A DNA stretch of 54,750 bases from a virus: the IMG/VR virus record IMGVR_UViG_3300011113_000434, positions 1 through 54,750 of that record; one strand, written 5' to 3'. Below, one piece after another: positions 11,301 through 54,750 of this stretch; the stretch's first letter is position 1, and the number at the start of each line of letters is the position of its first letter. The notes below the pieces were generated by a model. It searched no databases, was not told where the DNA came from, and saw only the letters and a list, made by a program, of their open reading frames with translations. The position numbers and the translations under genes are program-made.

Positions 11301-14300
11301 AAAGATGTTATTTCTAATCCACCAACAACAATAAGTATTGCATCAACTGGTGGAAAAAATCAGGAATTGAGTCTAATTAATCCACCAATTAGTGCAATAA
11401 AAGGAAATAATTTAAAGTTTGATCTATCAGACTCTTCTCTAGTTGGATATAAGTTAAAAATATACTATGATGTTGATCTTGCAAACGAATTTATATCCAT
11501 AGGTGGTAGTAGCTTCACCGTAGCAAATTATGGAACAGTCGGAGTTACAACAAATGCTGCTTTAATCATTGAATACAGTGATACTATTCCATCAAAACTC
11601 TTCTATGCATTAGAAAAATCTGGTTATATTAGTACCTCTGATAAAGAAGTAGTTAATTCATCACAAATATCTTTTGTTGACAGTCTTTATAATGGTTCTT
11701 ATAAAATAGTTGGTGTTGGATCAACTACTTTTGAGTTATCACTTGCACAAAAACCAGAGAGATCTCAATATACAATTAATGAGTGTAGGGAATTAAAATA
11801 TACAACAACATCTCTAAATGCAAGAGGTGGTGTTGATAAAATGAAAATTGTATTCGGTGGATTTGGATATAAGAGATTACCACTATTCCAATATATTAAT
11901 TCTGATACTGGAATAAATGCAAATATTAATATACTCTCAGATAATATTGGTAATATAAAAGATATTAGAATTTTAGATCAAGGATTTGAATATGCTTCAG
12001 ACAAAACATTAAGACCAGAAGCACTCATTTCTCCACTTTTAACATTAGTAGATAATACCGAAATTACAAGTGTTGAAGTTCTTGATGGTGGAAAAAATTA
12101 TACTTCTGCACCAAATATTGTTATCTACAATCCATCAACTGATGAAATTGTTAACAGTGGATATTTAAAAGCAAATACTTACTCAAATTCAGTCAGCAAT
12201 GTTGAAATTATTGATGTACCTAAAGGTTTAAATGCAGTTGTTCATGAACTATATGCTGTTGATAATACAAATGGTGTTGGTATCAATACCATTATATCTG
12301 GTCCTGGAGTTGTTACTTGTTTCCTATCTACTCCTGCTATTGGATTCTCAACAGCACCATTTGCAGTTGGTGATGTAATTTTTGTTGAAGGAATTCAGAA
12401 TAATACATCTCAGGGAGATGGATTCAATTCTATTGATCACAACTTTACATTTTTTACAGTTAATAAATTTGTTAATACGGTTCCCGCAAGATTGGAATAT
12501 GATATTTCTGTAGCAACTAATAATCCTGGACTAGCAAAAACTGACCAATTCTCTTTTGCAAATATCGTCAAAAAATCTGATCTTCCTAGATTTAGAATTA
12601 CACAAGCCGAATCCAAGTTTAAACTTGGAGAAACAATTGCTGTAAAAAATTCTAATGGATCATTCACCATTCAAGATCTTATAGTCACTGATTTTAGATC
12701 TAATAAAATTAAAATCCTAGGTGAATACGAATTAGTTACTGGCGACATCATTAAAGGTCAAATATCTGGTTCTATAGCAGAGATTGAAAATACATCACCA
12801 AATAAAGGTAGATTTGAAACAGATTATTCACTAAGAAAAGATTTTGGATGGAGTGATGATGTTGGAAAGTTAAATGAAGACTATCAGGTTATTCCTGATA
12901 ATGATTATTATCAAAATCTCTCATATACTGTCAAGAGTCCTCTAGAATATGAAGAGTTAATTACTCCTGTAAACAGACTTCTTCATAGCACAGGTATGAA
13001 GAATTTTGCAGATACTCAAGTTTCAACATCTTCTACACTATCCATTCAATCTGAAGATGTTACTAGTTTGGCCCTGATTGATATTATTAATGAAGAAAGT
13101 GTTGAAGAAATTAAGAATTTAGATCTAGGTTTAGATGTTGATGTTCTAGTAGATGGATCTCAGAAATCAAAATTCTTCAAATTTAAAAATAGAAAACTTG
13201 CAGACTACATTGAGTGTAGAACCAATAGAGTTCTTTTAATTGATGATATTTCAACACAATTCTCTAATAGTAATCTAAATGAAGGTGGATATGCTGATAT
13301 TTACAACTACAGTGAAACTTATGCTCGTTTCTTAGTTCAAATTAAGGATACTAATGAGCGTTTCATGCAGTTATCCGAATTGATTGTATTGTATACAGAT
13401 AGTGAAGTTCTTATTGAAGGTATTAAAGATGCAAAAACATTTACCTTAGAAAAAGGATCTTTATACAATAAAGCAAATCCAATTGGCAATTTAGATGGTA
13501 ACATTGACCAATTCGATAATCTAACACTGAGATTTACACCACAATCTACATTCATTGATGATTATGATATTAAGATTTTGGTTAATAAGTTTAATACAAC
13601 TGTTGGTGGCGGATCTAGTATCAATAATTATGGAGCAGTTTCTCTAAACTCAAGATCTAAGCAAGTTGGTTCTGGAACATCGGAAACTATTATTGAATTT
13701 GATTCGACTAAAGTAGATGGTTTCCATGGAACAATTCATGTTTTAGATTTAGAAAATAATGAGATGAATTTCTATGAGGTATATTCATATACTGATAGAA
13801 CTGATGTTTATATGTCAGAGTATTATTTTGATAACCAAAAAGCAACTACAAGTGCTTCAACAAATGTTTTAGGAACATTTACTTCATATCTCTCTGGGGG
13901 AGTTCTTAAATTAGATTTTGATAACAACAAAACACTAACCAATAAACTTGTGAGAGCAAGAATAGTTGGTTTTGGATCAACTGCTTTAGGAATTGGAACT
14001 TATAGATTTGCTCTTCCTGGACAACCACAAGAAAGAAGTGCTAGATATGACTCTTCTGTTGTTCACACAGTTGGAGCATCGTCAACAACTGTTGTTGGTG
14101 TTGCAAGTGATATTATCTCTTCTGTTAAATCATATGTTAGAGTTTCTGCTGGAAATACCTCAGCACTCCATCAAGTTATGATGATGCATGATGGAAGAGA
14201 AATTTATGTGCTTCAATATCCATTCCTATCAATAGGATCAACAACTGGAATTGGAACTTTTGGTGGACAATTTGTCAGTGATTTGGTTAGACTTAATTTC

Positions 14301-17300
14301 TATCCAGATTCAAATATTACTGGAGTAGTAACCATTACATCATTTAACGAAAAACTTTACGCATTTGCTGATAGGCAAAATAAAGCACCAGATTTTGTTT
14401 ATGGTCCAGAAACAGATTCTCTAGTTCTTTCTGAATATAATGGAACTCAAGGCGATAGAATTAACCGTCTTGATTTTACTGCTTCATATCAAGGATACCC
14501 AATCTTCAGCAAATCTTTTGATCCAGGAGATTCAGCACAACTTAATCTAGCGACTGGTATATTTACAATTAAAAATCACTTCTTCCAAACTAATGAAAAA
14601 CTAAATTATCAATCAGCATCAACTTTTGTTGGAGTAAATCCTGTTTCCGTTGGAATTGGATCGACTCTGGTTGGGGGAGTAACATTTACTGGTGATTTTA
14701 TATCTGGATTCTCAACAATTACTGGTGTTAGTACTTCTACTGGTTTACTAGTTGGTCAAACAGTAATTGGCCCAGGAGTACAGAATAATACAACAATTGT
14801 CAGCATTGGTCAAACCTTTAGGTGGTTTAGAGGTAATGTTTCCACAGGATCTACAGTAATTACTGGAATAGCAAATACTGCGATAATGGTTGTTGGATCT
14901 GGTATTTTCTCTGGAAATGGAACCAATCTAGGAACTCTAATTTCGATCGGCATTAATTCAATTAGTGCTAGTACAACTTTACCAGTTGGTACTGGAGTAA
15001 CTTATTATATTAACGCTCTTGGCATTGGAGTATCACTATCTAAAGTTTCTACTGCTACAACATTTAGACAAACATATACAAGCGGAATTGTAACAACTAT
15101 TTGTCCATCTACAGTTTATGCAATTAAGTTAGATAATGATAGATTCAAACTTACAGGAACTCAGGGTTCTGGAATTGCATTTACCTTTACTTCTGCTGGT
15201 AGTGGTAATGCTCATAAACTAACAATGGATAAGAGATTAGAAAAATCTCTTATTTGTATTGATAATGTTAATCAATACCCACTTGCATTTACTCCAATAT
15301 CATATAAGTTAGCAAATAATAGCGGTCAAATTGGAGCAGCAAATACTGTATTTGGAATTAGTGGTATTAGTTCCATTCGAGTAAATGATGTTCTTAAAGT
15401 TGATAATGAATTTATGAAGATCCTATCATTTGGATATGGATCTAGCACTACAGGACCTATTAGTGGAATTGGAACTTTCCTCTTGATGTCGGTTGAGAGA
15501 GGTTTCTCTGGAACGATTGCAACAGCACACTTAGATAATGCAGATGCTAGAATTTATAGAGGAGCATATAATATTGAAGAAAGCACCATTTATTTCACTG
15601 CGGCACCTCTTGGATCTGGTGTAAATGTTTTAGATAGTAGCAATCTAAAGAGACCAGTATCTAAGTTTGATGGTAGAGTATACCTGAGAAAGGATTATAC
15701 AACTAATAAGATATATGATGATATTTCAGACTCATTTACTGGAATTGCTCAAACATTTAGACTGAGAAATCAAGGAAACTCAACAACAGGAGTAGAAGCT
15801 GGAAGTGGGGTTGTATTTGTTAATGAAATGTTCCAGACTCCAACTACTGGAAATAACGCAGGAAATAATTATGCTCTGCAAGAAAATTCAGGAAATACAA
15901 ATGTTATCTTTACTGGCATTACTTCAAGTGATGGTTCGATTGTAAAATCTTTAGTTGATGTCAATCAAAATCAATTGCCAAGGGGTGGAATTATTATTTC
16001 TCTTGGATCAACTCCAGGTTTAGGATATGCACCTCTAAAAGGAGCACAAGTTGGAATTATTACTGGACCTAGTGGTCAAATCACAAACATTGTAAGTGTT
16101 GCAACTACTGGATCTTACTCTTCTATGACTGGATTCAGTTATAATCAAGTTACTGGTGTTGCAACCGTTTCAACCGCAGCTTCTCATGGTTTACTTGTTA
16201 ATGATCAAATATCATTTAGAAATATCAAACTTGAATGTCCAGATGGATATGCTGGATTAGGAACAGTTGGAATTAGTAGTTTGTTCTACAGTAATGTTAC
16301 TGGATTTATGACAGTAACTACAAGTTCTCCTCATAAGTTGGCAACAGGAATGAATATTAGATTGAGAAATCTAAGATTTGATTGTCCAATTGGAGTTGGT
16401 GGAACCATTGGAATTGTTACTGCTCAATATAGTAAAGCAACTGGTGTTTTAACAGTAACAACAAATTATGCTCATGGACTAGGAATTGGTGGAACTGTTC
16501 AATTAAGAGAACTACAATTCTCTTGCACTGGACCTTCTGGAATTACAACGACTATATTCCCAGATGGAACTCGTGGATATTTCTTCCCTGTTAATAATGT
16601 TGGATCAACTACATCATTTACAACAAATGTAGGAACATCAACCATCACTCATAATTATCAGAGAGGTGGATATGTCCGCGTTGGGGTAACAACTGATCTG
16701 TTCCCCGATGGATCAAGAGGATACATCTTTACTGTTGCTTCCATTGTTGGACCAAATACATTTGGTGTTAATGTTGGAACAAGTACAATTCGCCATAACT
16801 ACATCAATGGTGGAACAATTGAATCTGGAATTACAACTAATATCTTCCCAGATTCAAGAGGAGTTCCATTTAGCATCAGTAACTTCCAATATCATAAGAC
16901 AACAGGTGTTTCTACAATAACCTTTAATAGTAATCATAACTTTAAGTTATCGGATACTATTAAAATTGTTAATGCTAGATTTGATTGTCCAATTGCTGCT
17001 GGAACAACAATTGGAATTACGTCTGCTCAATATAGTAAAACAACTGGAATTCTAACAGTAACCACTGCTACTCCTCATGGTCTTGGTGTTGGTGGAACAA
17101 CAAGAATATTTGCTATGAACTTCTCTTGCCCACCAGGAAGTTCTGGAATTACAACAACTGTCTTCCCAGATGGAACTCGTGGATATTTCTTCCCTGTTAA
17201 TCTTGTCGGATTCCCAACACAATTCACAACAAACGTTGGAACATCTACAATTACACACAACTATGTAAATGGTGGTTATATACAGATTGGTATTACTACT

Positions 17301-19529
17301 GATCTTTTCCCAGACAGAGGCAAGAACTTTACTATTACCAGTATTCCAAGTGCAAATCAAATTGTAACTAATGTTGGCGTTTCTACAATAAACCATAATT
17401 ATGTTGGTGATGGATATGCATATGCTGTTAAGAGAACTGGTCCATATTCTGTAACAAGGGTACTAAGTAATACTCAATTTGAAACTAATGTTTATACTGT
17501 TGGATTTGCTCATACTTATGTAAGTGGTGGTGAAGTTTCTAAGTATTATAGTTTCCAACCAGGATCTGGTTATAGAGGAGAAATTGGAGTTGCTTTAAGT
17601 TCTCCAACTGGTAGTGGTGCAAACATTACAGCGTTTGCTGGAATTGGTGGAACCCTAGGATTTAAGATTAATTCTGCTGGATCTGGATACGGATTTGATA
17701 ATACCTACGTTACTATTCCTGAACCATCTTATGAGAATGTTCAAATTAAGGGGGTTTCAAGAGTTGGTATTGGATCCACAACTGAAACTGGAATTGGTCT
17801 GCTACTATCTCTTGAAGTTGGTGCAGCAGCAACAACTGGAATTGGATCAGATACTTGTGAAATTACAAACTTTAGAATTAGCAGACCTGGTTATGCATTC
17901 CAATTAGGAGATGTATTCACTGCTGTTGGATTAGTAACTGCTAAAAATCTAGTATCTCCTATTAATCAATTTGAGTTAACGGTTACTAATCTTTATTCTG
18001 ATTCATTTGCTGCTTGGCAATTTGGTGAACTAGACTTTATTGATTCTATTAAACCTCTACAGGATGGATCTAGAACGAGATTCCCACTACTTTATAATGG
18101 TCAACTTCTAAGTTTTGAAATTAATGCCAATGATCCAGATTCTTCTCAGATTGATCTTAATGCTGTTCTACTGATTTATATCAATGGTGTACCACAAACC
18201 CCAGGTGTAGCATATCAATTTGATGGAGGAACATCATTTACATTTACAACACCACCATCAGAAGAAGCCGATGTTGCTATTTTCTTCTACAGAGGAACAA
18301 GAAATAGTGATAGTATATTTGTAAATGTTAATGAAACTATTAAACCTGGAGATATTATTCAAATTGGTAAAAATAATGATATCAGAACTACTGTAGAACA
18401 ATATCCAAGAGTTGTATATGACATTAGTTCGGCTGATAAAGTGCAAACAAATCTATATGCAGATATTGGAATTGATGATACAAACTATAAACCAGTTAAT
18501 TGGAGAAAACAAAAAGTAGACCAAATTCTTGGTGGTGAATATGTCTATAAGACTAGAGATTCTTTAGAGTCTTCAGTATATCCAACTGGAAAGATTATTA
18601 AAAATCTCTCAGCAACAGATATAGATTTATTTGTTGATGATGCTAGATTCTTTAATTATGAAGAAAATGAATCTGTTATTGCAATTGGTGATTTTGATTT
18701 GATATTAACTAATACACCAGAAGATCCTGTTGCCGCTAGATTAACTGCAAATGTTTCTACCGCAGGAACAGTTAGCTCTTTAACCGTTGCTAACGGTGGA
18801 AGTGGATATAGTTCAGGAACTGCTACAGTTAAGATTGCTGCTCCAAAGAGCATTGGAATTGGAATTGGAACAACAGCAGTTGCAACCGTAACCGTGCTTA
18901 ATGGAACAATTGTAAGTGCAACCGTTACTAATGGTGGATTTGGATACTCACAATCAAAACCACCTGCGGTTATCGCTTCGGTTCAGAAAGCATATTATGA
19001 GAATATTACAAATGTAACCAGTGTTCTAGGATTCTCTGGAATTATAACTGGTATTACAACAACCTCAGGAACTGGTGGCCACCCATTAGCACTAAAACTG
19101 TTCTTAAATACAAGTACTTCATTTGCTTCACTATTAGATAATTATCCAATTTACGTTTTTGATACTGCTGTTGGAAGAGGTGTAACTTCTGTAGATGGTG
19201 GAAATAATTCTGTGGTTGGTGTTGGAACAACTTTTGCAGACAATATTTACTATGTACACTCAATAACACGTTATGGCGTAAATGCAGAAATTATTACAAA
19301 TATTCACAGTGGAACATCTGTTGTTGGACTGGCGACAACAGGAAGTACTACAAACCCTGTTGGTAAATTCTCTTGGGGTAAATTTGGTGGATTCACTAGA
19401 GGATCTACTGCAGTTTCAATTGGTATAACTGGATTAACAGTCAGTTCTGGATTATCAACATTCCCAACTGTCCAAAGAAGAGGATATGGATTGAGAGATC
19501 ATGGTGGATTGAGAAAAATTCTTGTTTAA
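5358..19529 (+). CDS. giant (4723 aa) baseplate/tail-associated protein in the gp7 position
   Basis: One uninterrupted frame follows gp6 where T4 has gene 7, so its N-terminus (about 1-250, containing FIREARSFYQAKGTEESFRI) is probably the wedge-attached part. T4 gp7 has about 1030 residues; this is over four times longer. Most of the rest is a mosaic of beta modules. These are GSGY-type repeats, a D-E-M...RG..GT..H module (about 98-136, 1543-1575, 3346-3398), a GD.V.Y...YYV..D...L module, and a YHYH domain (about 1195-1285, with IIGWAYDGNPIYGPYGY). Residues about 3640-4045 are a tandem duplication. The C-terminus ends RGYGLRDHGGLRKILV. It has no signal peptide or obvious enzyme motif. The likely role is a large peripheral baseplate structure for host contact. 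The gp7 identity is inferred from position. Confidence 0.75.
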   Translation: MISTGFDARVKINQIIESQLPEFLLSESPKSIEFFKQYYISQEFTGGSYDIAENLDQYLKLDNLTPEVITASTSLSSNITSNSGVVTVTSTKGFPSEYGLLKIDDEIITYTGLTTNTFTGCIRGFSGISSYHSETNPEELVFSSTDAASHSSGSTVENLSVAFLKEFYKKLKYSLTPGLEDEDFVPDLNVGNFIREARSFYQAKGTEESFRILFNVLYGYTPKVINLDNLLLRPSSAAFLRREVIIAEKISGNPNNLIGQTIYKSTDLKTKASVSNVEILTRGQKTYYRLDLFVGFSDADVVEGNFTISPKSRVIDSVSIGSSVITVDSTIGFDQSGTVICGNNTITYLDKTINQFLGCSGVDFAISPATDIRSDEVYYGYEDGDINAKSEIRITGVLSDFTELNNIEEVIVGEKILVKNLGESISNPDSANQSYKQLFANSWIYNTSSRFNILNISGSTFTLGTEIDDSSLKVGDHVDILIRNTQTIVVSDAIVANINKSNKQIILNNIISFSPVSSIDYDIRRKINKASSNAAEIEYGNNQIVSDVQNVYNELDEYFYVASNSLPSYPIEIEFTEASISDAIGGGSLQGLDVNTETYSIISFAQAVPFITGDEVVYSSQNSDIPGLVSGSTYFVKVLPLTNQIKLYASRSFIEIDDYVMFYETLIAGSHTFTLSSQKNRKVFPQKLLRKFPLSQNIKNGSNEKTNTGSIGLLVNGVEIINYKSDEKVYYGPIDNIKVFNQGENYDVINPPTIEVAAPSSGVQALIRPVVSGIVTDVVVDPQDFDIADVTSVTITGGNGSGCQLQPILEDRYRTVSFDARVTTQSGGVDINQETITFLTNHNFKNGEPIVYSNNGNQNLGVATYFGGNFDQSRYLVNGGTYYAKLFSNNTIRLHPTLTDFISGINTVGFSTINAVGIHKFRTFNSRKTLRAIKVLNSGSGYENRKLYAKPSAVSLSQDWISFDNHNFKDGDLVTYSTTGSAISGLSTSNQYYVIKYDSDTFRLANAGIGGTISSNYARGSYVKLNSQGSGYHIFSYPEISLNVNVSFASSTAGIITATPVIRGKIVDAYLYENGSGYGSKTINLHKKPQISIKTGTGAELKAFVVNGIIVSVQVLAAGSNYNAAPDLVVNGEGIGAVLRAKVSGGSITDVIVINGGSNYVQNTTSVSVQPPGKNAFIDISVRSLTINYANRFGKETLLPSENNVGYGWIGYSTSIALDQFSDDGANHSPIIGWAYDGNPIYGPYGYSDPEDSASTIKLLKTGYTLNPSIITNRPSGFSPGFFVEDYIYDDSGDLDYHNGRYTKTPEFPNGVYAYFTGISTNVATNELDPSFPYFIGDTYRSTVIQDNFLNLNQTFDFNSSNLIRNTYPYKVNQDYADNDFIIESNEVTNQSLIVESTTKGSINSYEILEAGDGYAMGESAVFDNSGTNGGGLSAEVSSLKGKTIANIQTQTQIYNNVVFTWKDKTSVEATVSPYHTLLDQENVSISGLSTYVPKLTGSHSVGVSTESIVVFKEIPANSVSGLVTDIYVSRVSNTISIGSTLGIGTEFMSVLNIFKDQNVLRVKRGVTGTAHTDRTRIDILANKLTVPISINHFDGYLNDKFYFNPKYSIGIGRTDGISSLVKVSIGETSQDVSVLSRSIYAPNHPFKNNQRVVLSIPPGSSPISVANTSGGAAFTIPYTGVSTQTLYVVNKSPNSIGLVTEFSTTSYIVSFGSTLAVTNAEYSNVTGILTVTTSTPHSFSPGFSLASLSSLVFGQVSPNDAYTTTQYTLWADVLFDKEDEIFIVNTPSGLLPTGTFAVLSTPNVNTFTVNVGTSLTAFGYSYGGSVLGFTSFTVYNSDGLYFLNNGSDNYEYLLRSDYTEVTGKIEKNKTVVSISTDHGLKNGDNITLTVKPNLTVGIGTSSFVKVKINSTEGKILINPIGFGSVGISTFSGVINIPSHGYATGDKVFYNASDEIASGLTTSSYYVYRIDNDNIKLSESYKDVISNPPTTISIASTGGKNQELSLINPPISAIKGNNLKFDLSDSSLVGYKLKIYYDVDLANEFISIGGSSFTVANYGTVGVTTNAALIIEYSDTIPSKLFYALEKSGYISTSDKEVVNSSQISFVDSLYNGSYKIVGVGSTTFELSLAQKPERSQYTINECRELKYTTTSLNARGGVDKMKIVFGGFGYKRLPLFQYINSDTGINANINILSDNIGNIKDIRILDQGFEYASDKTLRPEALISPLLTLVDNTEITSVEVLDGGKNYTSAPNIVIYNPSTDEIVNSGYLKANTYSNSVSNVEIIDVPKGLNAVVHELYAVDNTNGVGINTIISGPGVVTCFLSTPAIGFSTAPFAVGDVIFVEGIQNNTSQGDGFNSIDHNFTFFTVNKFVNTVPARLEYDISVATNNPGLAKTDQFSFANIVKKSDLPRFRITQAESKFKLGETIAVKNSNGSFTIQDLIVTDFRSNKIKILGEYELVTGDIIKGQISGSIAEIENTSPNKGRFETDYSLRKDFGWSDDVGKLNEDYQVIPDNDYYQNLSYTVKSPLEYEELITPVNRLLHSTGMKNFADTQVSTSSTLSIQSEDVTSLALIDIINEESVEEIKNLDLGLDVDVLVDGSQKSKFFKFKNRKLADYIECRTNRVLLIDDISTQFSNSNLNEGGYADIYNYSETYARFLVQIKDTNERFMQLSELIVLYTDSEVLIEGIKDAKTFTLEKGSLYNKANPIGNLDGNIDQFDNLTLRFTPQSTFIDDYDIKILVNKFNTTVGGGSSINNYGAVSLNSRSKQVGSGTSETIIEFDSTKVDGFHGTIHVLDLENNEMNFYEVYSYTDRTDVYMSEYYFDNQKATTSASTNVLGTFTSYLSGGVLKLDFDNNKTLTNKLVRARIVGFGSTALGIGTYRFALPGQPQERSARYDSSVVHTVGASSTTVVGVASDIISSVKSYVRVSAGNTSALHQVMMMHDGREIYVLQYPFLSIGSTTGIGTFGGQFVSDLVRLNFYPDSNITGVVTITSFNEKLYAFADRQNKAPDFVYGPETDSLVLSEYNGTQGDRINRLDFTASYQGYPIFSKSFDPGDSAQLNLATGIFTIKNHFFQTNEKLNYQSASTFVGVNPVSVGIGSTLVGGVTFTGDFISGFSTITGVSTSTGLLVGQTVIGPGVQNNTTIVSIGQTFRWFRGNVSTGSTVITGIANTAIMVVGSGIFSGNGTNLGTLISIGINSISASTTLPVGTGVTYYINALGIGVSLSKVSTATTFRQTYTSGIVTTICPSTVYAIKLDNDRFKLTGTQGSGIAFTFTSAGSGNAHKLTMDKRLEKSLICIDNVNQYPLAFTPISYKLANNSGQIGAANTVFGISGISSIRVNDVLKVDNEFMKILSFGYGSSTTGPISGIGTFLLMSVERGFSGTIATAHLDNADARIYRGAYNIEESTIYFTAAPLGSGVNVLDSSNLKRPVSKFDGRVYLRKDYTTNKIYDDISDSFTGIAQTFRLRNQGNSTTGVEAGSGVVFVNEMFQTPTTGNNAGNNYALQENSGNTNVIFTGITSSDGSIVKSLVDVNQNQLPRGGIIISLGSTPGLGYAPLKGAQVGIITGPSGQITNIVSVATTGSYSSMTGFSYNQVTGVATVSTAASHGLLVNDQISFRNIKLECPDGYAGLGTVGISSLFYSNVTGFMTVTTSSPHKLATGMNIRLRNLRFDCPIGVGGTIGIVTAQYSKATGVLTVTTNYAHGLGIGGTVQLRELQFSCTGPSGITTTIFPDGTRGYFFPVNNVGSTTSFTTNVGTSTITHNYQRGGYVRVGVTTDLFPDGSRGYIFTVASIVGPNTFGVNVGTSTIRHNYINGGTIESGITTNIFPDSRGVPFSISNFQYHKTTGVSTITFNSNHNFKLSDTIKIVNARFDCPIAAGTTIGITSAQYSKTTGILTVTTATPHGLGVGGTTRIFAMNFSCPPGSSGITTTVFPDGTRGYFFPVNLVGFPTQFTTNVGTSTITHNYVNGGYIQIGITTDLFPDRGKNFTITSIPSANQIVTNVGVSTINHNYVGDGYAYAVKRTGPYSVTRVLSNTQFETNVYTVGFAHTYVSGGEVSKYYSFQPGSGYRGEIGVALSSPTGSGANITAFAGIGGTLGFKINSAGSGYGFDNTYVTIPEPSYENVQIKGVSRVGIGSTTETGIGLLLSLEVGAAATTGIGSDTCEITNFRISRPGYAFQLGDVFTAVGLVTAKNLVSPINQFELTVTNLYSDSFAAWQFGELDFIDSIKPLQDGSRTRFPLLYNGQLLSFEINANDPDSSQIDLNAVLLIYINGVPQTPGVAYQFDGGTSFTFTTPPSEEADVAIFFYRGTRNSDSIFVNVNETIKPGDIIQIGKNNDIRTTVEQYPRVVYDISSADKVQTNLYADIGIDDTNYKPVNWRKQKVDQILGGEYVYKTRDSLESSVYPTGKIIKNLSATDIDLFVDDARFFNYEENESVIAIGDFDLILTNTPEDPVAARLTANVSTAGTVSSLTVANGGSGYSSGTATVKIAAPKSIGIGIGTTAVATVTVLNGTIVSATVTNGGFGYSQSKPPAVIASVQKAYYENITNVTSVLGFSGIITGITTTSGTGGHPLALKLFLNTSTSFASLLDNYPIYVFDTAVGRGVTSVDGGNNSVVGVGTTFADNIYYVHSITRYGVNAEIITNIHSGTSVVGLATTGSTTNPVGKFSWGKFGGFTRGSTAVSIGITGLTVSSGLSTFPTVQRRGYGLRDHGGLRKILV
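16280..17490 (+). repeat. ~606-bp tandem duplication inside the giant baseplate gene
   Basis: Two consecutive units (about 16280-16885 and 16886-17490) encode the same series: Y-x-x-TG-x-x-TVTT-x-x-x-HGL, F-x-CP, SGITTT-x-FPDGTRGYFFPVN, FTTNVGTSTITHNY, then a GITTDLFPD strand. A 39-base stretch starting at 16557 recurs exactly at 17163. Another (AGATTTGATTGTCCAATTG) lies at 16374 and 16977. The 606- and 603-base offsets show a one-codon indel. A partial third unit precedes them from about 16130. Confidence 0.75.
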
Positions 19530-38570: not shown

Positions 38571-38746
38571 TGAAATTCGATCCCGATGATATCTCTTTAG
38601 AGAATCTAACTAAAAACTTTGAGTATACAAAGATTGCACGTGAGATTGATTCTTGTGATGATCTTGAATATATGAAAAATGTTGCAAAGTGCTATGTAAA
38701 ACTTTATTTCAAAACACAAGAAACAATCGCAGCAATGGTCAAATGA
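38570..38746 (+). CDS. hypothetical protein, 58 aa
   Basis: I choose ATG 38570, whose A is the last base of the previous TGA (TGATG). The product (MKFDPDDISLENLTKNFEYT ... CDDLEYMKNVAKCYVKLYFK, then QETIAAMVK) is all-helical. The pattern EIDSCDDLEYMKNVAKCY resembles short proteins I recall from many T4-like phages, with no known function. Its stop overlaps the next ATG (ATGA), so it is translationally coupled on both sides. It has no membrane segment. Confidence 0.65.
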   Translation: MKFDPDDISLENLTKNFEYTKIAREIDSCDDLEYMKNVAKCYVKLYFKTQETIAAMVK

Positions 38747-39057
38747 AATCATTCAAAGAATTTCTATCAGAAAGCATTAATATTGCTGGTGATTTCAACG
38801 GTAATCTTTACGTTAATAGTTCCGAAACACAATCGGAACCAGTTGGGGAATCTTTTCTTGCAGATATAATGTGGCAAGGAAAAATATATCGCCTTGAAGT
38901 TGAGGGTAAAATGATGGATAAAAACTCTCTAACAGAACAAATTCAAGGTGAATATCCTGGCGCGATTGTTCATAATGTTTATCCATTAACACAAAATTCT
39001 GTAAAAATTAAAAACGCACAGAGGTATAAGCCTGAAAGTTTAAATTGGGGTGATTGA
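38743..39057 (+). CDS. candidate internal head protein with capsid-targeting-like N-terminus (104 aa)
   Basis: Starting at ATG 38743 (ATGA overlap with the preceding stop) the protein begins MKSFKEFLSES. This matches the T4 internal-protein capsid-targeting sequence MKTYQEFIAEA position by position, with a gp21-type site L8-S9-E10/S11. The remaining 94 residues are a mixed alpha/beta domain (NLYVNSSETQSEPVGESFLA, IYRLEVEGKMMDK, YPGAIVHNVYPL). I infer that it is packaged in the prohead, trimmed by gp21 and possibly ejected with DNA. The mature domain is not recognised. Confidence 0.6.
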   Translation: MKSFKEFLSESINIAGDFNGNLYVNSSETQSEPVGESFLADIMWQGKIYRLEVEGKMMDKNSLTEQIQGEYPGAIVHNVYPLTQNSVKIKNAQRYKPESLNWGD

Positions 39058-47680: not shown

Positions 47681-48331
47681 ATGAAACTCATCACAGAAGA
47701 AATCCAAAAGGTAGAATTTATCGTTGAAGGCAAAGGTGCCGCTAAGAAAATGTATATTGAAGGTGTATTCCTTCAAGGCAACATTTGTAATCGTAATGGT
47801 AGAATGTATCCTATGGAAACTCTTGCCCGTGAGGTAAAGAGATATGATGAAAGCTTTATTCAAAAAGGACGTGCTCTTGGTGAACTTGGACATCCTGATG
47901 GTCCAACCGTAAACCTTGATCGTGTTTCACATAAAATTGTTTCACTTACTCAAGAAGGAAACAATTTCAGGGGTAAAGCACAATTGCTGGAAACGCCAAT
48001 GGGTAAGATTGCTAAATCACTCATCGATGAAGGTGTTTGTCTTGGCGTTTCTTCTCGTGGTGTTGGTTCACTCAAGATGACCAATGAAGGTCATAAAATT
48101 GTTGGTGAAGATTTCATGTTAGCAACTGCTGCTGATATCGTTGCCGATCCTTCTGCACCTGACGCTTTTGTTCAGGGAATTATGGAGGGTAAAGAATGGG
48201 TTTGGGATGGTGGAATTCTTCGTGAAAAACTCGCTGAGCAAACACAAAGAAGAATCAATACTCTTGTTGATCAAAAAAGACTTGAAGAGCACAAGTTGAA
48301 TTTATTCAACGAGTTTCTTTCAAATCTATAA
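47681..48331 (+). CDS. 21: prohead core protease gp21
   Basis: gp21 is the maturation protease that cuts scaffold, capsid and internal proteins after (I/L)-x-E. The 216 residues (T4 212) contain the herpesvirus-assemblin-like catalytic His in GELGHPDG (H71), the Ser in LGVSSRG (S124/S125) and the conserved TAADIVADPSAPDAFV segment with its Asp. The opening FIVEGKGAAKKMYIEGVFLQ and NRNGRMYP are diagnostic. It probably also processes the candidate cargo proteins elsewhere in this window. A late promoter for gp22 lies just after its stop. Confidence 0.95.
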   Translation: MKLITEEIQKVEFIVEGKGAAKKMYIEGVFLQGNICNRNGRMYPMETLAREVKRYDESFIQKGRALGELGHPDGPTVNLDRVSHKIVSLTQEGNNFRGKAQLLETPMGKIAKSLIDEGVCLGVSSRGVGSLKMTNEGHKIVGEDFMLATAADIVADPSAPDAFVQGIMEGKEWVWDGGILREKLAEQTQRRINTLVDQKRLEEHKLNLFNEFLSNL

Positions 48332-49545: not shown

Positions 49546-50958
49546 ATGCAAATGTTCAATGCAGAACATCTGCAGGAAAAGTGGGCACCACTGCTAGACT
49601 ATACAGGTCTTGATCCTATTAAGGATTCACATCGCAGAATGGTAACCGCTGTCCTGCTCGAAAACCAAGAAAACGCAATTCGTGAAGAGCGTGAGTTCCT
49701 TTACGAAGCACCAACCAACGGAACAGCTTCAGGTGCTAGTGGCGCTGGTTTTGGTGGTAGCGCACAAGGATTCAGCGCAGGTCCTACCGCAGGTTTCGAC
49801 CCTGTTCTGATCAGCCTAATCCGCCGTTCAATGCCAAACCTGATCGCTTACGATCTTTGTGGCGTTCAACCAATGAACGGTCCTACTGGACTGATCTTTG
49901 CAATGCGCTCACGCTACAGAAACCAAAGCGGAGCTGAGAGCTTCTACAACGAAGTTGATTCAGCATTCTCTGGTCAAGATAGCGGATTCAATGAGGTTAA
50001 CGGATATACTGACGGTACAGTTGGTATGGGTACTACCGCACAAGGCGGAAGCAACCCATCAATCCTTGATCCTTCTAACCAAACTGCTAACGCTGCAAGT
50101 GGCGCTAACCAGTATAACGTTGGTCAAGGACTCAGAACTGATTCTGCTGAATCTCTTGGAGAGAGCGATCAGTTCAACCAGATGGCATTCTCGATCGAGA
50201 AAGTCACTGTTACCGCTAAGTCACGTGCTCTGAAAGCTGAGTACAGCCTAGAACTGGCTCAGGACCTCAAGGCAATCCACGGTCTGAATGCTGAAGCGGA
50301 ATTAGCAAACATTCTCTCAACTGAGATTCTTGCTGAAATCAACCGCGAAGTTATCAGAACCATCTATAAGGTTGCTGAACCAGGTGCTCAGGTTAACACC
50401 GCTACTGCTGGTACTTTTGACCTCGACGTTGACTCCAACGGTCGTTGGTCGGTTGAGAAGTTCAAGGGTCTGATCTTCCAGATCGAGCGTGATGCAAACG
50501 CTATCGCCCAGAGAACTCGTAGAGGAAAGGGTAACATGATCCTCTGCTCTGCTGACGTTGCTTCGGCACTCACCATGGCAGGTGTTCTTGATTACACCCC
50601 TGCTCTCAACGCTAACCTCCAAGTCGATGATACTGGCAACACCTTCGCTGGTGTTCTCCAAGGTAAGTATCGTGTATATATTGACCCATATTCGGCAAAC
50701 GTTGCTGCAAACCAGTTCTACGTTGTCGGTTATAAGGGTTCCAGCCCATATGACGCTGGTCTCTTCTATTGCCCATATGTTCCTCTCCAAATGGTACGTG
50801 CCGTTGGTGAGAACACCTTCCAGCCAAAAATCGGGTTTAAGACTCGTTATGGCATGGTTGCGAACCCATTCGCTGAGGGTACTACCCAAGGTCAGGGCGC
50901 TCTTACAACTAACGCAAACCGTTACTACAGAAGAGTTAGAGTTCAAAACCTCATGTGA
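49546..50958 (+). CDS. 23: major capsid protein gp23
   Basis: gp23 builds the hexamers of the icosahedral head. The N-terminus MFNAEHLQEKWAPLLDYTGL, the propeptide site F-L52-Y53-E54/A55 for gp21, SLIRRSMPNLIAYDLCGVQP, and PTGLIFAMRSRY with ALKAEYSLELAQDLKAIHGL are all diagnostic. It ends RYYRRVRVQNLM. It has 470 residues (T4 521). The coding sequence has visibly more C-ending codons (AAC, CTC, GTC) than the neighbouring genes, as expected of the most abundant product. It has a strong ribosome-binding site upstream and a strong terminator downstream. T4 gene 24 (vertex protein) does not follow. Confidence 0.97.
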   Translation: MQMFNAEHLQEKWAPLLDYTGLDPIKDSHRRMVTAVLLENQENAIREEREFLYEAPTNGTASGASGAGFGGSAQGFSAGPTAGFDPVLISLIRRSMPNLIAYDLCGVQPMNGPTGLIFAMRSRYRNQSGAESFYNEVDSAFSGQDSGFNEVNGYTDGTVGMGTTAQGGSNPSILDPSNQTANAASGANQYNVGQGLRTDSAESLGESDQFNQMAFSIEKVTVTAKSRALKAEYSLELAQDLKAIHGLNAEAELANILSTEILAEINREVIRTIYKVAEPGAQVNTATAGTFDLDVDSNGRWSVEKFKGLIFQIERDANAIAQRTRRGKGNMILCSADVASALTMAGVLDYTPALNANLQVDDTGNTFAGVLQGKYRVYIDPYSANVAANQFYVVGYKGSSPYDAGLFYCPYVPLQMVRAVGENTFQPKIGFKTRYGMVANPFAEGTTQGQGALTTNANRYYRRVRVQNLM

Positions 50959-51025: not shown

Positions 51026-51577
51026 ATGGCAACAAATATTCTTTCCAGACAGATTTCTAATCGCAATTTTCTTTCACCAATTGGGTTTAGATTTACGCTG
51101 GCAAGATTTCCTAAAGTATCTTTTTTCTCAAACTCAGCAAAAATTCCAGAAATTAGTTTACAAACATTAGTACAACCAACTTACTTAAAATCTCTTGATG
51201 TTCCAGGAAAACAATTGACCTTTGGAGATTTTACTCTAAGATTTTTGGTAGACGAAAATTTGGAAAATTATATGGCAATCCATAATTGGTTATATGGATT
51301 GGGAGCACCAGAATCTCTTCAACAATATGTTGATTTGATTGATGAGACTGGACAAGAAGATGAAAAAAAGGCATTTAGTGATGGAACTCTAAGAATTTTA
51401 AACAGCAATTACAGGGATATCGCTTTAGTAAAATTCAAAGACCTTTTTCCAACATCACTTAACTCATTGGATTTTGAAGCTCAGGAAACAGACATCAAAT
51501 ACTTTACAGCGGATGTAACTTTCAAGTATACTGTCTATACTATCACAAACGCAAACAACGAGAAATATGAACCTTGA
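51026..51577 (+). CDS. tail completion protein, gp3-like (tail-tube fold)
   Basis: The 183-residue product (NRNFLSPIGFRFTLARFPKV, then FGDFTLRFLVDENLENYMAI, then HNWLYGLGAPES) has the strand-helix pattern of tail-tube-family proteins. In T4-like cyanophages the gene between 23 and uvsY is annotated as gp3, the tail completion ring that caps the tube beneath gp15; T4 gp3 has 176 residues. A gp54-like tube initiator is an alternative because of the shared fold. It overlaps uvsY by 11 bases, an unusual linkage of a tail gene with a recombination gene. Confidence 0.65.
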   Translation: MATNILSRQISNRNFLSPIGFRFTLARFPKVSFFSNSAKIPEISLQTLVQPTYLKSLDVPGKQLTFGDFTLRFLVDENLENYMAIHNWLYGLGAPESLQQYVDLIDETGQEDEKKAFSDGTLRILNSNYRDIALVKFKDLFPTSLNSLDFEAQETDIKYFTADVTFKYTVYTITNANNEKYEP

Positions 51578-51998
51578 TGAAATTCAGGAGATGTGGCAGA
51601 GAGATTCTGTCATTGATCCTGATAATTTACACGATGAATCTTTAAAAATTCCCCAACTACATGCAAAGTATTATACAATCTATAATACAATTACTTTGTT
51701 GCGTGAAAAAGCAAGAGATACATTTAATAGAGTAAAGTTAGAAAGATACAACTACTACACTGGAAAGGCGCCTGTAGAGGTTTATGAGGAAGAACCTTTC
51801 CCATATAAGGTTAGAGATAAGGAAGCGTTACAGAGGCATATGGATGGGGATGAGAAGTTAAGTAAAATAGAACTAAAAATTAGATACTATGACATCATGC
51901 TGAAGTTTCTTGAAGAAGTTATTAAGACAATTTCAAATCGCACTTTTCAAATTAAAAATGCTATTGAATGGCACCGATTCCAGGCTGGGTTTAACTAA
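51567..51998 (+). CDS. uvsY: recombination mediator UvsY
   Basis: UvsY loads the UvsX recombinase onto gp32-coated single-stranded DNA. The 143 residues (T4 137) match the family: MNLDEIQEMWQRDSVIDPDN, a mid helix with RYNYYTGKAPVEVYEEEPFP, KVRDKEALQRHMDGDEKLSK, and the C-terminal oligomerisation helix ending FQIKNAIEWHRFQAGFN (T4 ends FAIKHIQDMRAFEAGK). It begins inside the gp3-like gene. Its stop lies in a late promoter. UvsX is not in the window; UvsW follows after one intervening gene. Confidence 0.93.
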   Translation: MNLDEIQEMWQRDSVIDPDNLHDESLKIPQLHAKYYTIYNTITLLREKARDTFNRVKLERYNYYTGKAPVEVYEEEPFPYKVRDKEALQRHMDGDEKLSKIELKIRYYDIMLKFLEEVIKTISNRTFQIKNAIEWHRFQAGFN

Positions 51999-52021: not shown

Positions 52022-53986
52022 ATGAAGACGTTTGTAAAATTTATATCTGAGTGTTATTTTTTTCTAACCGAAGCTAAAAAAGAAGGTGGTCGTGGTGGCC
52101 CAGACTATGACTATGAGCAATCTTTTGTGAATCTCTATAATCATATGGCGTCCGATTCTAGTAAGAAAGGCGCTGAGATGAGAAAGCAATTTAGACTTGC
52201 TGTGTCCAAAGGTGATATGTTCACAGTTGTTGATTTAATTTCAAGAGAAATACAAAGAGCTCAAACAGACCCTTCATCACCTTTATATTTTGATAATCTA
52301 GACCCAACTGATCCTGGTTTTACTGGTGGAAAAAGATCTAAAACTGGAGAGGTTGAAGATAAAGAAGCGCACAGACAAGCATATTATGATAAATTAATGA
52401 ATCAACAATATTCATTATTGAATTTTGTTCAAAGTGAAAGTGGTAGAGGACAAGTAATTAATCGTGCTGTTGCACAAAGAGAAGGTGCTACTAAAGTTCC
52501 ACTAACAGCAAAAGGAAAGGAACTAACTGGAAAAGAACAAGATACATCTAAAGTTGATGTTTCATTTACTGGTAAAGATGGAAATACATATGGAATTTCC
52601 TTAAAAGATGCCAAAGGTGCTGTTGTTAATTCATCTGGATCGGAAGAAACAAAAGCATATATTCTTCTTGGAATGGATTCTCTGTTAAATCAGCAAGAGC
52701 AATCTGGAGAAATTACTCCAGAACAGAGAGCAGAAAAAGAAGCAATGGGCACTGAACTTGCCAATCAACTTGCTCTTTATATGGCAAGTACAAGAGGCAT
52801 GTCTAAAGAGCAACAGAAAGATGCCCTTGGACAAATGCAAGAGTATTTAAGTAGTATTGAATCGGTTGTTCCAGGAACTATGCAGGCCATGTCTGCTGAA
52901 GCAATTACTGGAAAAGGAAAATATGGTGATGCCAGCACTGTTGATGCTTTATTTTCTACTGGTAGGGGTGGAGAAGTTATTGAAGATCCTTCATGGTTGG
53001 CACAATATGTTTTTCAAAGAGGAAGACTTGGTAAAGGTCAAACCAAACCAAAAGAAGGTCCTAGAGTACAAAGACCAACCACTATTGCTGGCGATATCAA
53101 AAATTATAGAGATGCTGAAAACAAACCAGAAGATAGTGAATATCTAAGAAAGTGGAGAGATGAATGGGGTCAATCTGCATGGGAGAAAAAAATTGGCGGA
53201 TTTGAACCAGAAATTCAAGATGAAATAAGAAAACTTCAAGGAACTGGTCAATTTAGTTTACGTGATTTATATAATTATGAACAACAAGATACTCAGGTTA
53301 AGCAATTGAAATCATTTGATCAATTCCAGCAAGATGCACAATCTTCAGAAAAAGATTTAATCTCTAAGCAAAAACAATATGATGCTACTGCAGCAGAAGT
53401 TGAAAAGGCTTCAGTACCTATTGATCCAGAAACTGGAAAAGAAGTTCTACATCAACGTAGACCAAATTTAAAAGCATTTATGGCAAGCAATCCAACATCA
53501 AAGGTTGCTCAAGTTAATAATGAAAGGCAGCAACAAGCTCAAGCAAAATTAACACAAGCACAGAGCGAACTTGACAATGCTTCTGCAATACACCAATCAA
53601 ATCAATCTAATTTAGACACTGTAGCATCTTCTATACAAGCACAACAACAGGCAGCAGCAGAAAAAGAACAACAACCAACTCAAACTCCAACCACAAATAA
53701 TCAACAACAGCAACAACAAACAACACAATTACCTCCTCAAGAAACACCACAACCAGAGCAACCTAAAAAACCAACACAACAAACTCAGCAAGTTGCACAA
53801 TCACAACCTGCAACACCAGAACCAACCCAACAGCAGCAACAACCAATTGCAACTACACAACAACCAACACCAACACCAACAGAAAAACCAACACCAACAG
53901 AAAAACCAATACAAGAACCTCAAAAAAAGAAAAGAAACGGAAAAGAACAAATCCAACCTGAAACTACTCAAACTCAACCACAATAA
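52022..53986 (+). CDS. unknown 654-aa protein: capsid-targeting-like N-terminus, nuclease-like motif, Gln/Pro-rich tail
   Basis: The N-terminus MKTFVKFISECYFFLTEAKK resembles the T4 internal-protein targeting leader. It has two candidate gp21 sites, I8-S9-E10/C11 and L15-T16-E17/A18. A globular part (about 30-430) contains KVDVSFTGKDGNTYGISLKD. D179 and S-L-K195 there resemble a variant PD-(D/E)XK nuclease core, the usual acid before x-K being Ser. Residues about 430-540 are a predicted coiled coil. Residues 540-654 are low-complexity Gln/Pro/Thr with a basic KKKRNGK patch. It lies between uvsY and uvsW behind a late-type promoter. I infer a head-packaged protein, possibly ejected with DNA; nuclease activity is speculative. 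No family is recognised. Confidence 0.5.
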   Translation: MKTFVKFISECYFFLTEAKKEGGRGGPDYDYEQSFVNLYNHMASDSSKKGAEMRKQFRLAVSKGDMFTVVDLISREIQRAQTDPSSPLYFDNLDPTDPGFTGGKRSKTGEVEDKEAHRQAYYDKLMNQQYSLLNFVQSESGRGQVINRAVAQREGATKVPLTAKGKELTGKEQDTSKVDVSFTGKDGNTYGISLKDAKGAVVNSSGSEETKAYILLGMDSLLNQQEQSGEITPEQRAEKEAMGTELANQLALYMASTRGMSKEQQKDALGQMQEYLSSIESVVPGTMQAMSAEAITGKGKYGDASTVDALFSTGRGGEVIEDPSWLAQYVFQRGRLGKGQTKPKEGPRVQRPTTIAGDIKNYRDAENKPEDSEYLRKWRDEWGQSAWEKKIGGFEPEIQDEIRKLQGTGQFSLRDLYNYEQQDTQVKQLKSFDQFQQDAQSSEKDLISKQKQYDATAAEVEKASVPIDPETGKEVLHQRRPNLKAFMASNPTSKVAQVNNERQQQAQAKLTQAQSELDNASAIHQSNQSNLDTVASSIQAQQQAAAEKEQQPTQTPTTNNQQQQQQTTQLPPQETPQPEQPKKPTQQTQQVAQSQPATPEPTQQQQQPIATTQQPTPTPTEKPTPTEKPIQEPQKKKRNGKEQIQPETTQTQPQ

Positions 53987-54011: not shown

Positions 54012-54750
54012 ATGTCTCATTTGGTGATATCAAAAAAGAACGAAGTATATCTGCAGGTTAAAGCGGAACCGCATGTATACTACGAACTTGCTGATCAATT
54101 TACTTTTGACGTACCAGGTGCCAAGTTTATGCCCCAGTTTCGTAACAAATACTGGGATGGAAAAATACGTTTGTTTAACACACAAACTGGTGAAATCTAT
54201 GTTGGTCTTTTAGATAAACTCACCAATTTTTGTAAAAATCATGAATATACTTATGAGTTTACAAACAATAAATTTTATGGTCTTCCTTTTGAGGTAAATG
54301 AACATATCTCAAAAGAAGGTGTAAAAGATTATATGAATTCTATTTGTAAGTATGCTCCCCGTGAGTACCAAGTTGAGGGAGTATACGACGCTTTACGACA
54401 TAATCGAAAGTTGTTGATATCTCCAACTGCTTCTGGAAAGTCGTTGATGATATATTCGATTGTCCGATATTACGTTGAGAAAGGACAAAATACTCTGATA
54501 GTCGTTCCAACGACATCGCTTGTAGAGCAGATGTATAAAGACTTTGCAGATTATGGGTGGGATGTCGGTTCATACTGCCACAAAATATACGCAGGTAAAG
54601 AGAGAGAAACAGACTCTCAGGTTATCATTACAACCTGGCAGTCCATCTACAAACTTCCCCGACAATATTTCTCAAGATTTAATGTGGTCGTTGGAGATGA
54701 AGCACACCAGTTTAAATCAAAGTCATTAGTATCTATAATGACAAAACTTT
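54012..54750 (+). CDS. uvsW: UvsW helicase (5' part, runs off the window)
   Basis: UvsW is a superfamily 2 helicase that unwinds R-loops and branched DNA and helps switch T4 from origin- to recombination-dependent replication. The first 246 residues show the N-terminal domain PGAKFMPQFRNKYWDGKIRL (T4 RFNPRFRYGNWDGRIRLL), a Q-motif-like PREYQVEGV (about 116-124) and Walker A SPTASGKS (137-144). Motif Ia VVPTTSLVEQM (164-174), TTWQSIYK (207-214) and motif II GDEAH (228-232; T4 has DECH) follow. The frame is open to the window end. The start is ATG 54012; ATG 54004 leads to an early stop. Confidence 0.95.
   Translation, partial: MSHLVISKKNEVYLQVKAEPHVYYELADQFTFDVPGAKFMPQFRNKYWDGKIRLFNTQTGEIYVGLLDKLTNFCKNHEYTYEFTNNKFYGLPFEVNEHISKEGVKDYMNSICKYAPREYQVEGVYDALRHNRKLLISPTASGKSLMIYSIVRYYVEKGQNTLIVVPTTSLVEQMYKDFADYGWDVGSYCHKIYAGKERETDSQVIITTWQSIYKLPRQYFSRFNVVVGDEAHQFKSKSLVSIMTKL

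Follow-up and report, generated by a model that had tools for sequence, protein, structure and literature searches.

Introduction

In bacteriophage T4, the first 10 residues of the internal protein IPIII suffice for its incorporation, residues 4 and 7 are the main determinants of targeting and residues 8 and 10 of processing, and the prohead protease gp21 cuts after L/I-x-E (PMC9026906); the same source describes T4 IPI as an inhibitor of restriction enzymes. In a second precedent, virions of the chlorovirus PBCV-1 carry restriction endonucleases that are presumed to degrade host DNA from 5 min after infection (PMC7019647). Here, we describe gene X, an open reading frame (ORF) of 654 amino acids (aa) in a 54,750-nucleotide (nt) stretch of DNA from a marine T4-like phage (IMG/VR virus record IMGVR_UViG_3300011113_000434, positions 1 to 54,750; the whole stretch is called the window). 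We think that X is probably a late, capsid-targeted, restriction-endonuclease-like nuclease; on ejection together with the phage genome, it would cut the DNA of the host or of rivals. It is unlikely to be an ordinary hypothetical protein.

52022..53986, + strand: gene X, 654-aa ORF with its stop codon included, from the ORF and its translation; putative capsid-tagged restriction-endonuclease-like protein

X resembles each of the described systems in part. Like X, T4 IPI, IPII and IPIII have a leader with aromatic residues at positions 4 and 7 and a gp21-type site, and IPI shares the later-cut layout (ITE/A at residues 17-20 as compared to LTE/A at 15-18 in X, the slash marking the cut). However, the T4 proteins are 95-193 aa long, and while IPI inhibits restriction enzymes, X resembles one. 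The PBCV-1 enzymes are an analogue only in how they work, and we claim no homology; PBCV-1 is a virus of a eukaryotic alga and has companion methyltransferases, unlike X. Among Type II enzymes, HinP1I, MspI and HhaI have a fold like that of a modelled relative of X over nearly the whole chain, and we found no significant sequence similarity between them and the X family. In contrast to HinP1I and MspI, the X family has a Ser at the position of the Glu in ExK and an invariant helix Glu 12-13 residues after the Lys, and X itself has a capsid-targeting-like leader, a late-promoter-like motif and, in the window, the neighbours UvsY and UvsW rather than a methyltransferase. HinP1I and MspI also replace the Glu of ExK, with Gln in HinP1I and Asn in MspI.

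The CCGG-family enzymes (Cfr10I, NgoMIV, BsaWI) have the motif PDX21-53KX12-13E, in which the acidic residue is moved behind the Lys (PMC4652773), and a further acidic residue on an N-terminal helix (PMC4652773, PMC6344858). The K-X12-13-E spacing and the helix residue are common to X, which has the same residue set in the same order (E32, D179, K195, E209). However, the D-K spacing in the X family is mostly X10 rather than X21-53, so that the full motif is absent, and the R-(D/E)R recognition motif of the CCGG family is missing between K195 and E209 in X. For these two reasons, we do not file X as a CCGG-family member. None of the three enzymes is among the fold matches listed for the relative.

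X begins with a leader that resembles those of T4 internal proteins

The N-terminus of X (MKTFVKFISECYFFLTEAKK) opens with MKTFVKFISE, which has 6 of 10 identities to each of the T4 leaders (NC_000866), where IPII and IPIII begin MKTYQEFIAEA and IPI begins MKTFKEFTST. At the positions that matter in T4, X has F4, F7, I8 and E10.

52022..52072, + strand: capsid-targeting-like leader, residues 1-17 (MKTFVKFISECYFFLTE), from alignment and comparison with T4 IPI, IPII and IPIII

52043..52051, + strand: I-S-E, residues 8-10, followed by Cys; first possible prohead-protease site, from the sequence and the gp21 motif

52064..52075, + strand: L-T-E/A, residues 15-18; likely prohead-protease cleavage site, from a site scan

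An earlier sequence-only reading of this DNA had proposed both the T4-like leader and the second site at residues 15-18, and both hold up. A strict leader pattern picks out 3 of 28 coding sequences (CDS) in the T4 stretch, which are exactly ipI, ipII and ipIII, while the looser pattern used for the family counts below picks out 7 of 28. LTEA is the sole [LI]xE[AGS] match across the 654 residues of X. Among 15 aligned sequences, the most distant of which is 23% identical to X, K2 and F4 are invariant.

For counts across the family, members were chosen by the pattern T[PST]KxD...SxK...E, with the P-RSM6 type and Mel-JY01 excluded, and their N-termini were compared with 300 shuffles. We found that L/I-x-E lies within the first 32 residues of 55 of 57 distinct N-termini (shuffle mean 24.3, maximum 33), that the strict site [LI]xE[AGS] is present in 45 of 57 (mean 5.5, maximum 12) and that the loose leader pattern is present in 49 of 57 (mean 10.1, maximum 19); because the N-termini come from related sequences, these counts show conservation and not independent events. 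L/I-x-E is found in 43 of 45 N-termini of the Melnitz/HTVC008M branch and in 10 of 10 of the window branch, where the loose pattern is found in 8 of 10. The strict site is present in 40 of 45 Melnitz/HTVC008M N-termini; in window-branch members that miss it, the Glu is mostly followed by Glu or Cys. The relative in cyanophage P-RSM6, outside these counts, starts MKSFVSFKSEAKLLEGK.

When the strict pattern was applied to cyanophage S-SM1, it returned three ORFs of at least 60 aa. Two lie inside other annotated genes in a different frame, and the third, the only annotated CDS, is the cytidyltransferase SSM1_190 of cluster T4-GC190, a cluster reported in purified S-SM1 virions (PMC3037559). We read the leader of X as a T4-type capsid-targeting sequence that includes a prohead-protease site, and X is likely to be targeted to the capsid and processed.

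A second capsid-leader-like start is present in the window, at 38743-39054: MKSFKEFLSES, in a protein of unknown function (phrog_1742) encoded upstream of the terminase gene.

Invariant residues outline a putative nuclease active site

Alignment A6 (n = 52) contains cyanophage-, pelagiphage- and methylophage-type relatives: 41 Melnitz-branch representatives, the loci L030 and L038, the window core, six other window-branch members, L026 and L027. It omits the named phages and six of the 14 non-Melnitz representatives, which are L001 (near-identical to X), L004, L008, L016, L017 and L018. In all 52 sequences, E32, G99, G155, G170, T175, K177, D179, S193, K195, E209 and K300 (window numbering) are invariant, and the leader Glu (E17 in the window protein) is Glu in 50.

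52103..53011, + strand: nuclease-like domain, approximately residues 28-330, from conservation, profile match and models

52115..52117, + strand: E32 in an N-terminal helix (residues 31-43, window model); putative metal-site residue, 52 of 52

52544..52558, + strand: T175-S-K177-V-D179, putative catalytic Asp motif TxKxD; T, K and D in 52 of 52

52598..52606, + strand: S193-L-K195, putative catalytic Lys, with Ser at the acidic position of (D/E)xK; S and K in 52 of 52

52646..52648, + strand: E209, putative second carboxylate, K-X13-E; 52 of 52

52898..52921, + strand: E293-A-I-T-G-K-G-K300, EAxTGxxK motif; K300 in 52 of 52, E293 in 50 of 52

D179 and S-L-K195, which the sequence-only reading had singled out in a strand context as a variant PD-(D/E)XK core, are therefore accompanied by E32 and E209. 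The middle residue of S-x-K is Leu in 41 sequences, Val in 10 and Met in one. Between D and K, 41 of 52 sequences have X10 and the other 11 have X14-X35 (X15 in the window protein), and between K and E 43 have X12 and nine have X13, such that the carboxylate of the permuted form, K-X12-13-E, is present in every aligned sequence. The HTVC008M relative, which lies outside A6, retains the same E, T, K, D, S, K and E. From this conservation, the likely active site of X is E32...D179...S193-x-K195-X13-E209.

A relative of X is predicted to have a restriction-endonuclease fold

We modelled the window core from 15 sequences, with a predicted local distance difference test (pLDDT) score of 69. In this model, D179 lies in a strand (residues 173-183), a second strand (189-193) ends at S193, and K195 is just beyond it, before a low-confidence stretch. 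A search of BFVD with the window model gave one match at an expectation value (E) of 0.001 or below, M4SQ08 (2.1e-12), which we take to be the P-RSM6 relative from its 392-aa length. Structure prediction bears out the proposed nuclease-like core in the relative L042 and fails to do so in the window protein. Because the window protein's own model matched no nuclease, the fold assignment is taken from L042.

L042, modelled with A6, reached a pLDDT of 87.5 and a predicted template modelling score (pTM) of 0.84, with very low confidence in the first nine residues. In Foldseek, MspI (1sa3) is the first match (E 1.0e-3, probability 1.00, template modelling (TM) scores 0.35/0.40) and HinP1I (2fkc) the second (E 4.2e-3, probability 0.96, TM 0.30/0.36); all other matches have E >0.5. 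In VIA, the HinP1I/MspI overall fold is found over 187-205 residues: HinP1I 2fkc has Z 10.5 (203 aligned, 4.6 Å), HinP1I 1ynm Z 10.3 (187, 3.7 Å) and MspI 1sa3 Z 10.2 (205, 4.3 Å). HhaI 6uke follows with Z 6.4 (163, 4.6 Å), and the next, unrelated chain has Z 4.3. An unrelated fold, which would have counted against the sequence-only reading, is not what we found, because the confident model of the relative is that of a restriction endonuclease. This match is the strongest support for a nuclease-type core in the D...SLK region, and the L042 model makes a restriction-endonuclease-like fold likely for the X family.

X is preceded by a late-promoter-like motif

T4-like late promoters have the form TATAAATA, and CTAAATA is found in phage Aeh1 (PMC1524935).

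51995..52001, + strand: CTAAATA, late-promoter-like motif 20 nt before the start codon of X, from a motif scan

In the window, CTAAATA occurs five times as compared to 13.9 expected (both strands), and all five copies are on the + strand, 13-54 nt before a start, with the portal and tail-tube-like genes among those preceded. Across the X family, CTAAATA or NATAAATA is present in 60 of 67 distinct 80-nt upstream regions (45 of 51 in the Melnitz branch, 14 of 14 in the window branch and one of two for L030/L038). In control ORF calls, the motif precedes 60 of 69 family ORFs as compared to 27 of 321 other ORFs of at least 100 aa in the same loci, and several of these 27 resemble head or tail genes, uvsW or cytidyltransferase relatives. 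The P-RSM6-type member in L031 also has the motif.

The X family occupies two gene contexts in marine T4-like phages

X has no Pfam family at E<=5, and searches of PHROG and NCBIfam gave no significant match. The sole match in 50,697 phage records at E<=1e-3 is cyanophage P-RSM6 (two records; 27.8% identity over 30% of X). Among the 52 aligned members, the only repeated family match is phrog_22045, of unknown function (31 members). Weak single matches to RE_TdeIII (0.12) and phiKZ_IP (0.027), and of the L030 leader to the internal virion protein family phrog_7857 (E 0.14), were not used as evidence. Searches of the PDB by sequence gave no credible match. R-HINP1I (PF11463) has no match in the window record and likewise none in 14 control genomes, and the HinP1I and MspI group models are both missing from the 25 families listed for the 52 members at E<=1. 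In bacterial and archaeal genomes, two scans by pattern returned no relative.

Searches for related loci gave overlapping sets of 12, 22 and 26 loci for the window branch, three for P-RSM6 and 29 for Melnitz. A Melnitz-profile scan of IMG/VR found 201 stretches that encode a relative, from which 80 loci were retained. X is connected to Melnitz and HTVC008M transitively, by way of L030 and of profiles. The window branch matches L030 at 25% identity (E 2e-14, relative to the candidate stretches only), and L030 matches Melnitz at E 2e-4. The window profile matches the Melnitz profile over window residues 148-320 (E 2.6e-7, probability 93.4%), and with L030 and L038 added the profile link has E 7.9e-13. 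Three members in named phages, CPXG_00038 (cyanophage P-RSM6), MelnitzEXVC044M_15 and I899_gp126 (HTVC008M), are all annotated as hypothetical. They are 392, 361 and 352 aa long, without the long Gln/Pro/Thr tail of X, and they lie after gp41 or in a cytidyltransferase cluster rather than in the uvsY-uvsW gap.

In the window, the late cluster runs in the order portal (phrog_213), gp21, scaffold gp22 (phrog_237), gp23, tail-tube-like (phrog_45), UvsY, X and UvsW. X is thus flanked by two recombination genes and ends in a low-complexity tail, as the sequence-only reading had noted; relatives align poorly in the tail.

47681..48331, + strand: head maturation protease gp21 (phrog_207, E 2.1e-82), the presumed leader-removing enzyme

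49546..50958, + strand: major capsid protein gp23 (phrog_138), with LYE/A at residues 52-55 resembling the site in X

51567..51998, + strand: UvsY (phrog_231, E 1.4e-54; PF11056), upstream of X

53612..53983, + strand: Gln/Pro/Thr-rich low-complexity tail, residues 531-654; Q+P+T 65% as compared to 16% in residues 28-330

54012..54750, + strand: UvsW (UvsW_N PF21241 and helicase domains), downstream of X and cut by the window end

We named neighbours in unannotated contigs by eye, where they resembled window or annotated genes. In context A, the order is uvsY-X-uvsW (L001, L002, L004-L007 and L015-L017); L031 has this context with a P-RSM6-type member, and L029 has the uvsY side only. In context B, uvsX, gp41, often mazG and sometimes other genes precede X (L003, L008-L012, L018-L021 and L030, and by annotation Melnitz and HTVC008M, where gp41 lies directly upstream of the relative). 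Because other members follow gp41, the uvsY-uvsW position carries no information on its own.

Several further observations concern these loci. Directly after X in context B there is a variable protein of about 500 aa (phrog_1462; L003:3481-4899, L008:6317-7852, L010:6475-7902, L011:3167-4675) with the pattern W-N-P-(A/S)-D-(V/I)-W ... S-L-K-K, possibly another nuclease-like core. A protein with a KWDGAPAI motif (DUF6267 in Melnitz) lies near X in Melnitz, HTVC008M and P-RSM6 (L039:5812-7068, L040:6025-7257, L013:1457-2635). We take KWDGAPAI to recall the KxDG of nucleotidyltransferases and ligases. The protein is encoded close to a cytidyltransferase of the kind detected in S-SM1 virions, and the genes may form a packaged-enzyme cluster. 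A tRNA-Ala(TGC) lies just upstream of X in seven of 10 scanned loci (L003, L008, L010, L011, L012, L018 and L020), followed in three of the seven by a tRNA-Leu; the scans of L030, Melnitz L039 and HTVC008M L040 showed no tRNA upstream of X. In L006:1-1176 and L007:2413-3912, a minus-strand ORF precedes the tail-tube-like gene, unlike in the window, and in L007 it sits between gp23 and that gene. Elsewhere in the window, 5358-19526 holds a 4723-aa ORF, the first 1500 residues of which match the baseplate wedge family phrog_2885 almost full length.

The absence of CCGG does not track X

MspI cuts CCGG. The window contains no CCGG (0 as compared to 25 expected). CCGG is likewise absent from S-SM1 (L033-L036; 0 as compared to 140 expected), where our searches detected no X relative; other loci that bear X do contain it (observed/expected 25/37, 20/53 and 34/74). 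For these reasons, we dropped CCGG as a candidate target of X, and we claim no recognition sequence for it. In the window and in S-SM1, the absence of CCGG looks like strong restriction-site avoidance that does not follow the occurrence of X. S-SM1 also lacks GTAC (0 as compared to 491 expected).

Discussion

We propose that X would be made late, as an internal head protein, and that its N-terminal leader would take it into the prohead core, where gp21 would cut after LTE17 (or ISE10) and free mature X. The domain of mature X would be of PD-(D/E)XK type and nearest to MspI and HinP1I in fold, and its active-site set would bind Mg2+. It would be packaged with the genome and ejected with the phage DNA, and would then cut host chromosomal DNA or competing-phage DNA early in infection. 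It is plausible that X is injected and active against host or rival DNA. Computation shows the leader with its protease-site motif, the late-promoter motif, the family relationship, the invariant residues and the fold of a relative; that X itself has this fold, is packaged, loses its leader, is ejected and cuts a given target is inferred.

A number of observations weigh against this proposal. For the fold, structure searches with the window core model returned no restriction enzyme and were dominated by helical bundles, the Foldseek TM-scores of the L042 model are low (0.30-0.40) with no match strictly below E 0.001, and the transfer of the fold from relative to X rests on approximately 20% identity. 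Searches by sequence for restriction-enzyme families gave only RE_TdeIII, at E 0.12, in one of 52 members. For the active site, the acidic residue two before the Lys of canonical PD-(D/E)XK is a Ser in 52 of 52, E32 lies outside the window-Melnitz profile alignment and was placed by MAFFT only, and the Mel-JY01 relative retains D, S, K and E while the Thr of TxKxD is lost. Mel-JY01 is also without the leader. The window branch keeps the strict site in three of 10 N-termini, which equals the shuffle maximum of 3, and it is the Melnitz branch that accounts for most of the 45 of 57 overall. The late motif is absent from P-RSM6, L026 and Mel-JY01, and T4 ipI, ipII and ipIII have no such motif in the 80 nt upstream. 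We found no virion proteome of any phage carrying the X family in the literature searched, and recognition-site avoidance does not track gene X among the window, S-SM1 and the other X-bearing loci.

Four other explanations have to be weighed. X could be a packaged nuclease directed at competing phages (superinfection exclusion) and not at the host chromosome. The anatomy would be the same as in our proposal, and exclusion of other viruses was what was first proposed for the packaged chlorovirus restriction enzymes, although the same source now credits those enzymes with rapid host DNA degradation (PMC7019647). The present data do not separate the two targets, and we regard exclusion alone as unlikely, if a serious alternative.

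It is improbable, in our view, that X is a packaged protein of restriction-endonuclease fold that no longer cuts DNA and serves as a core or scaffold part, or as a decoy or inhibitor that, like T4 IPI, shields the incoming DNA. Such a loss of activity would fit the Ser that replaces the acidic residue before x-K and the long low-complexity tail, which is unusual in enzymes, and IPI, with its similar leader, inhibits restriction enzymes (PMC9026906). However, a pure scaffold would have no need for an E, D, K and E that never vary among the 52 sequences, and in known active enzymes the carboxylate comes from KX12-13E (PMC4652773). Because the catalytic-type residue set is fully conserved, a nuclease is likelier than an IPI-like restriction inhibitor.

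An unpackaged, phage-directed nuclease in recombination or replication, with a leader that merely resembles a capsid-targeting sequence, seems to us quite improbable. The neighbours uvsY and uvsW, or uvsX and gp41, would suit such a role; however, leaders end in L/I-x-E in 55 of 57 N-termini, and 60 of 67 upstream regions carry the late motif, also where the gene belongs to the gp41 cluster. Given the late motif and the second gene context, we do not accept the uvsY-uvsW position as proof that X acts in recombination. It is hardly credible that X is an unrelated structural protein in which leader and motif arose by chance: the low-complexity tail, the lack of a database family and the unmatched window model would allow it, but the leader and residues are deeply conserved, the relative has a restriction-enzyme fold, and the late-motif control, fold match, invariant residues and shuffle counts already disfavour it.

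If X is a packaged nuclease, as we propose, then T4-like phages of marine cyanobacteria, SAR11 and methylotrophs may package restriction-endonuclease-like enzymes of a so far unrecognised class in their virions. These would be the prokaryotic counterpart of the packaged chlorovirus enzymes, with an active-site arrangement (MspI/HinP1I fold, Ser-x-Lys-X12-13-Glu) that is new to us; we offer this broader claim tentatively, as somewhat short of an even chance. Abundant ocean phages would then inject a DNA-cutting enzyme along with their genome, which would explain concretely how early host takeover or rival exclusion could work in cyanobacteria and SAR11, and would assign a testable function to a widespread hypothetical family. 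It would also mean that injected phage proteins can be predicted by reading T4 capsid-targeting leaders from sequence, and would raise the question of how such phages protect their own packaged DNA.

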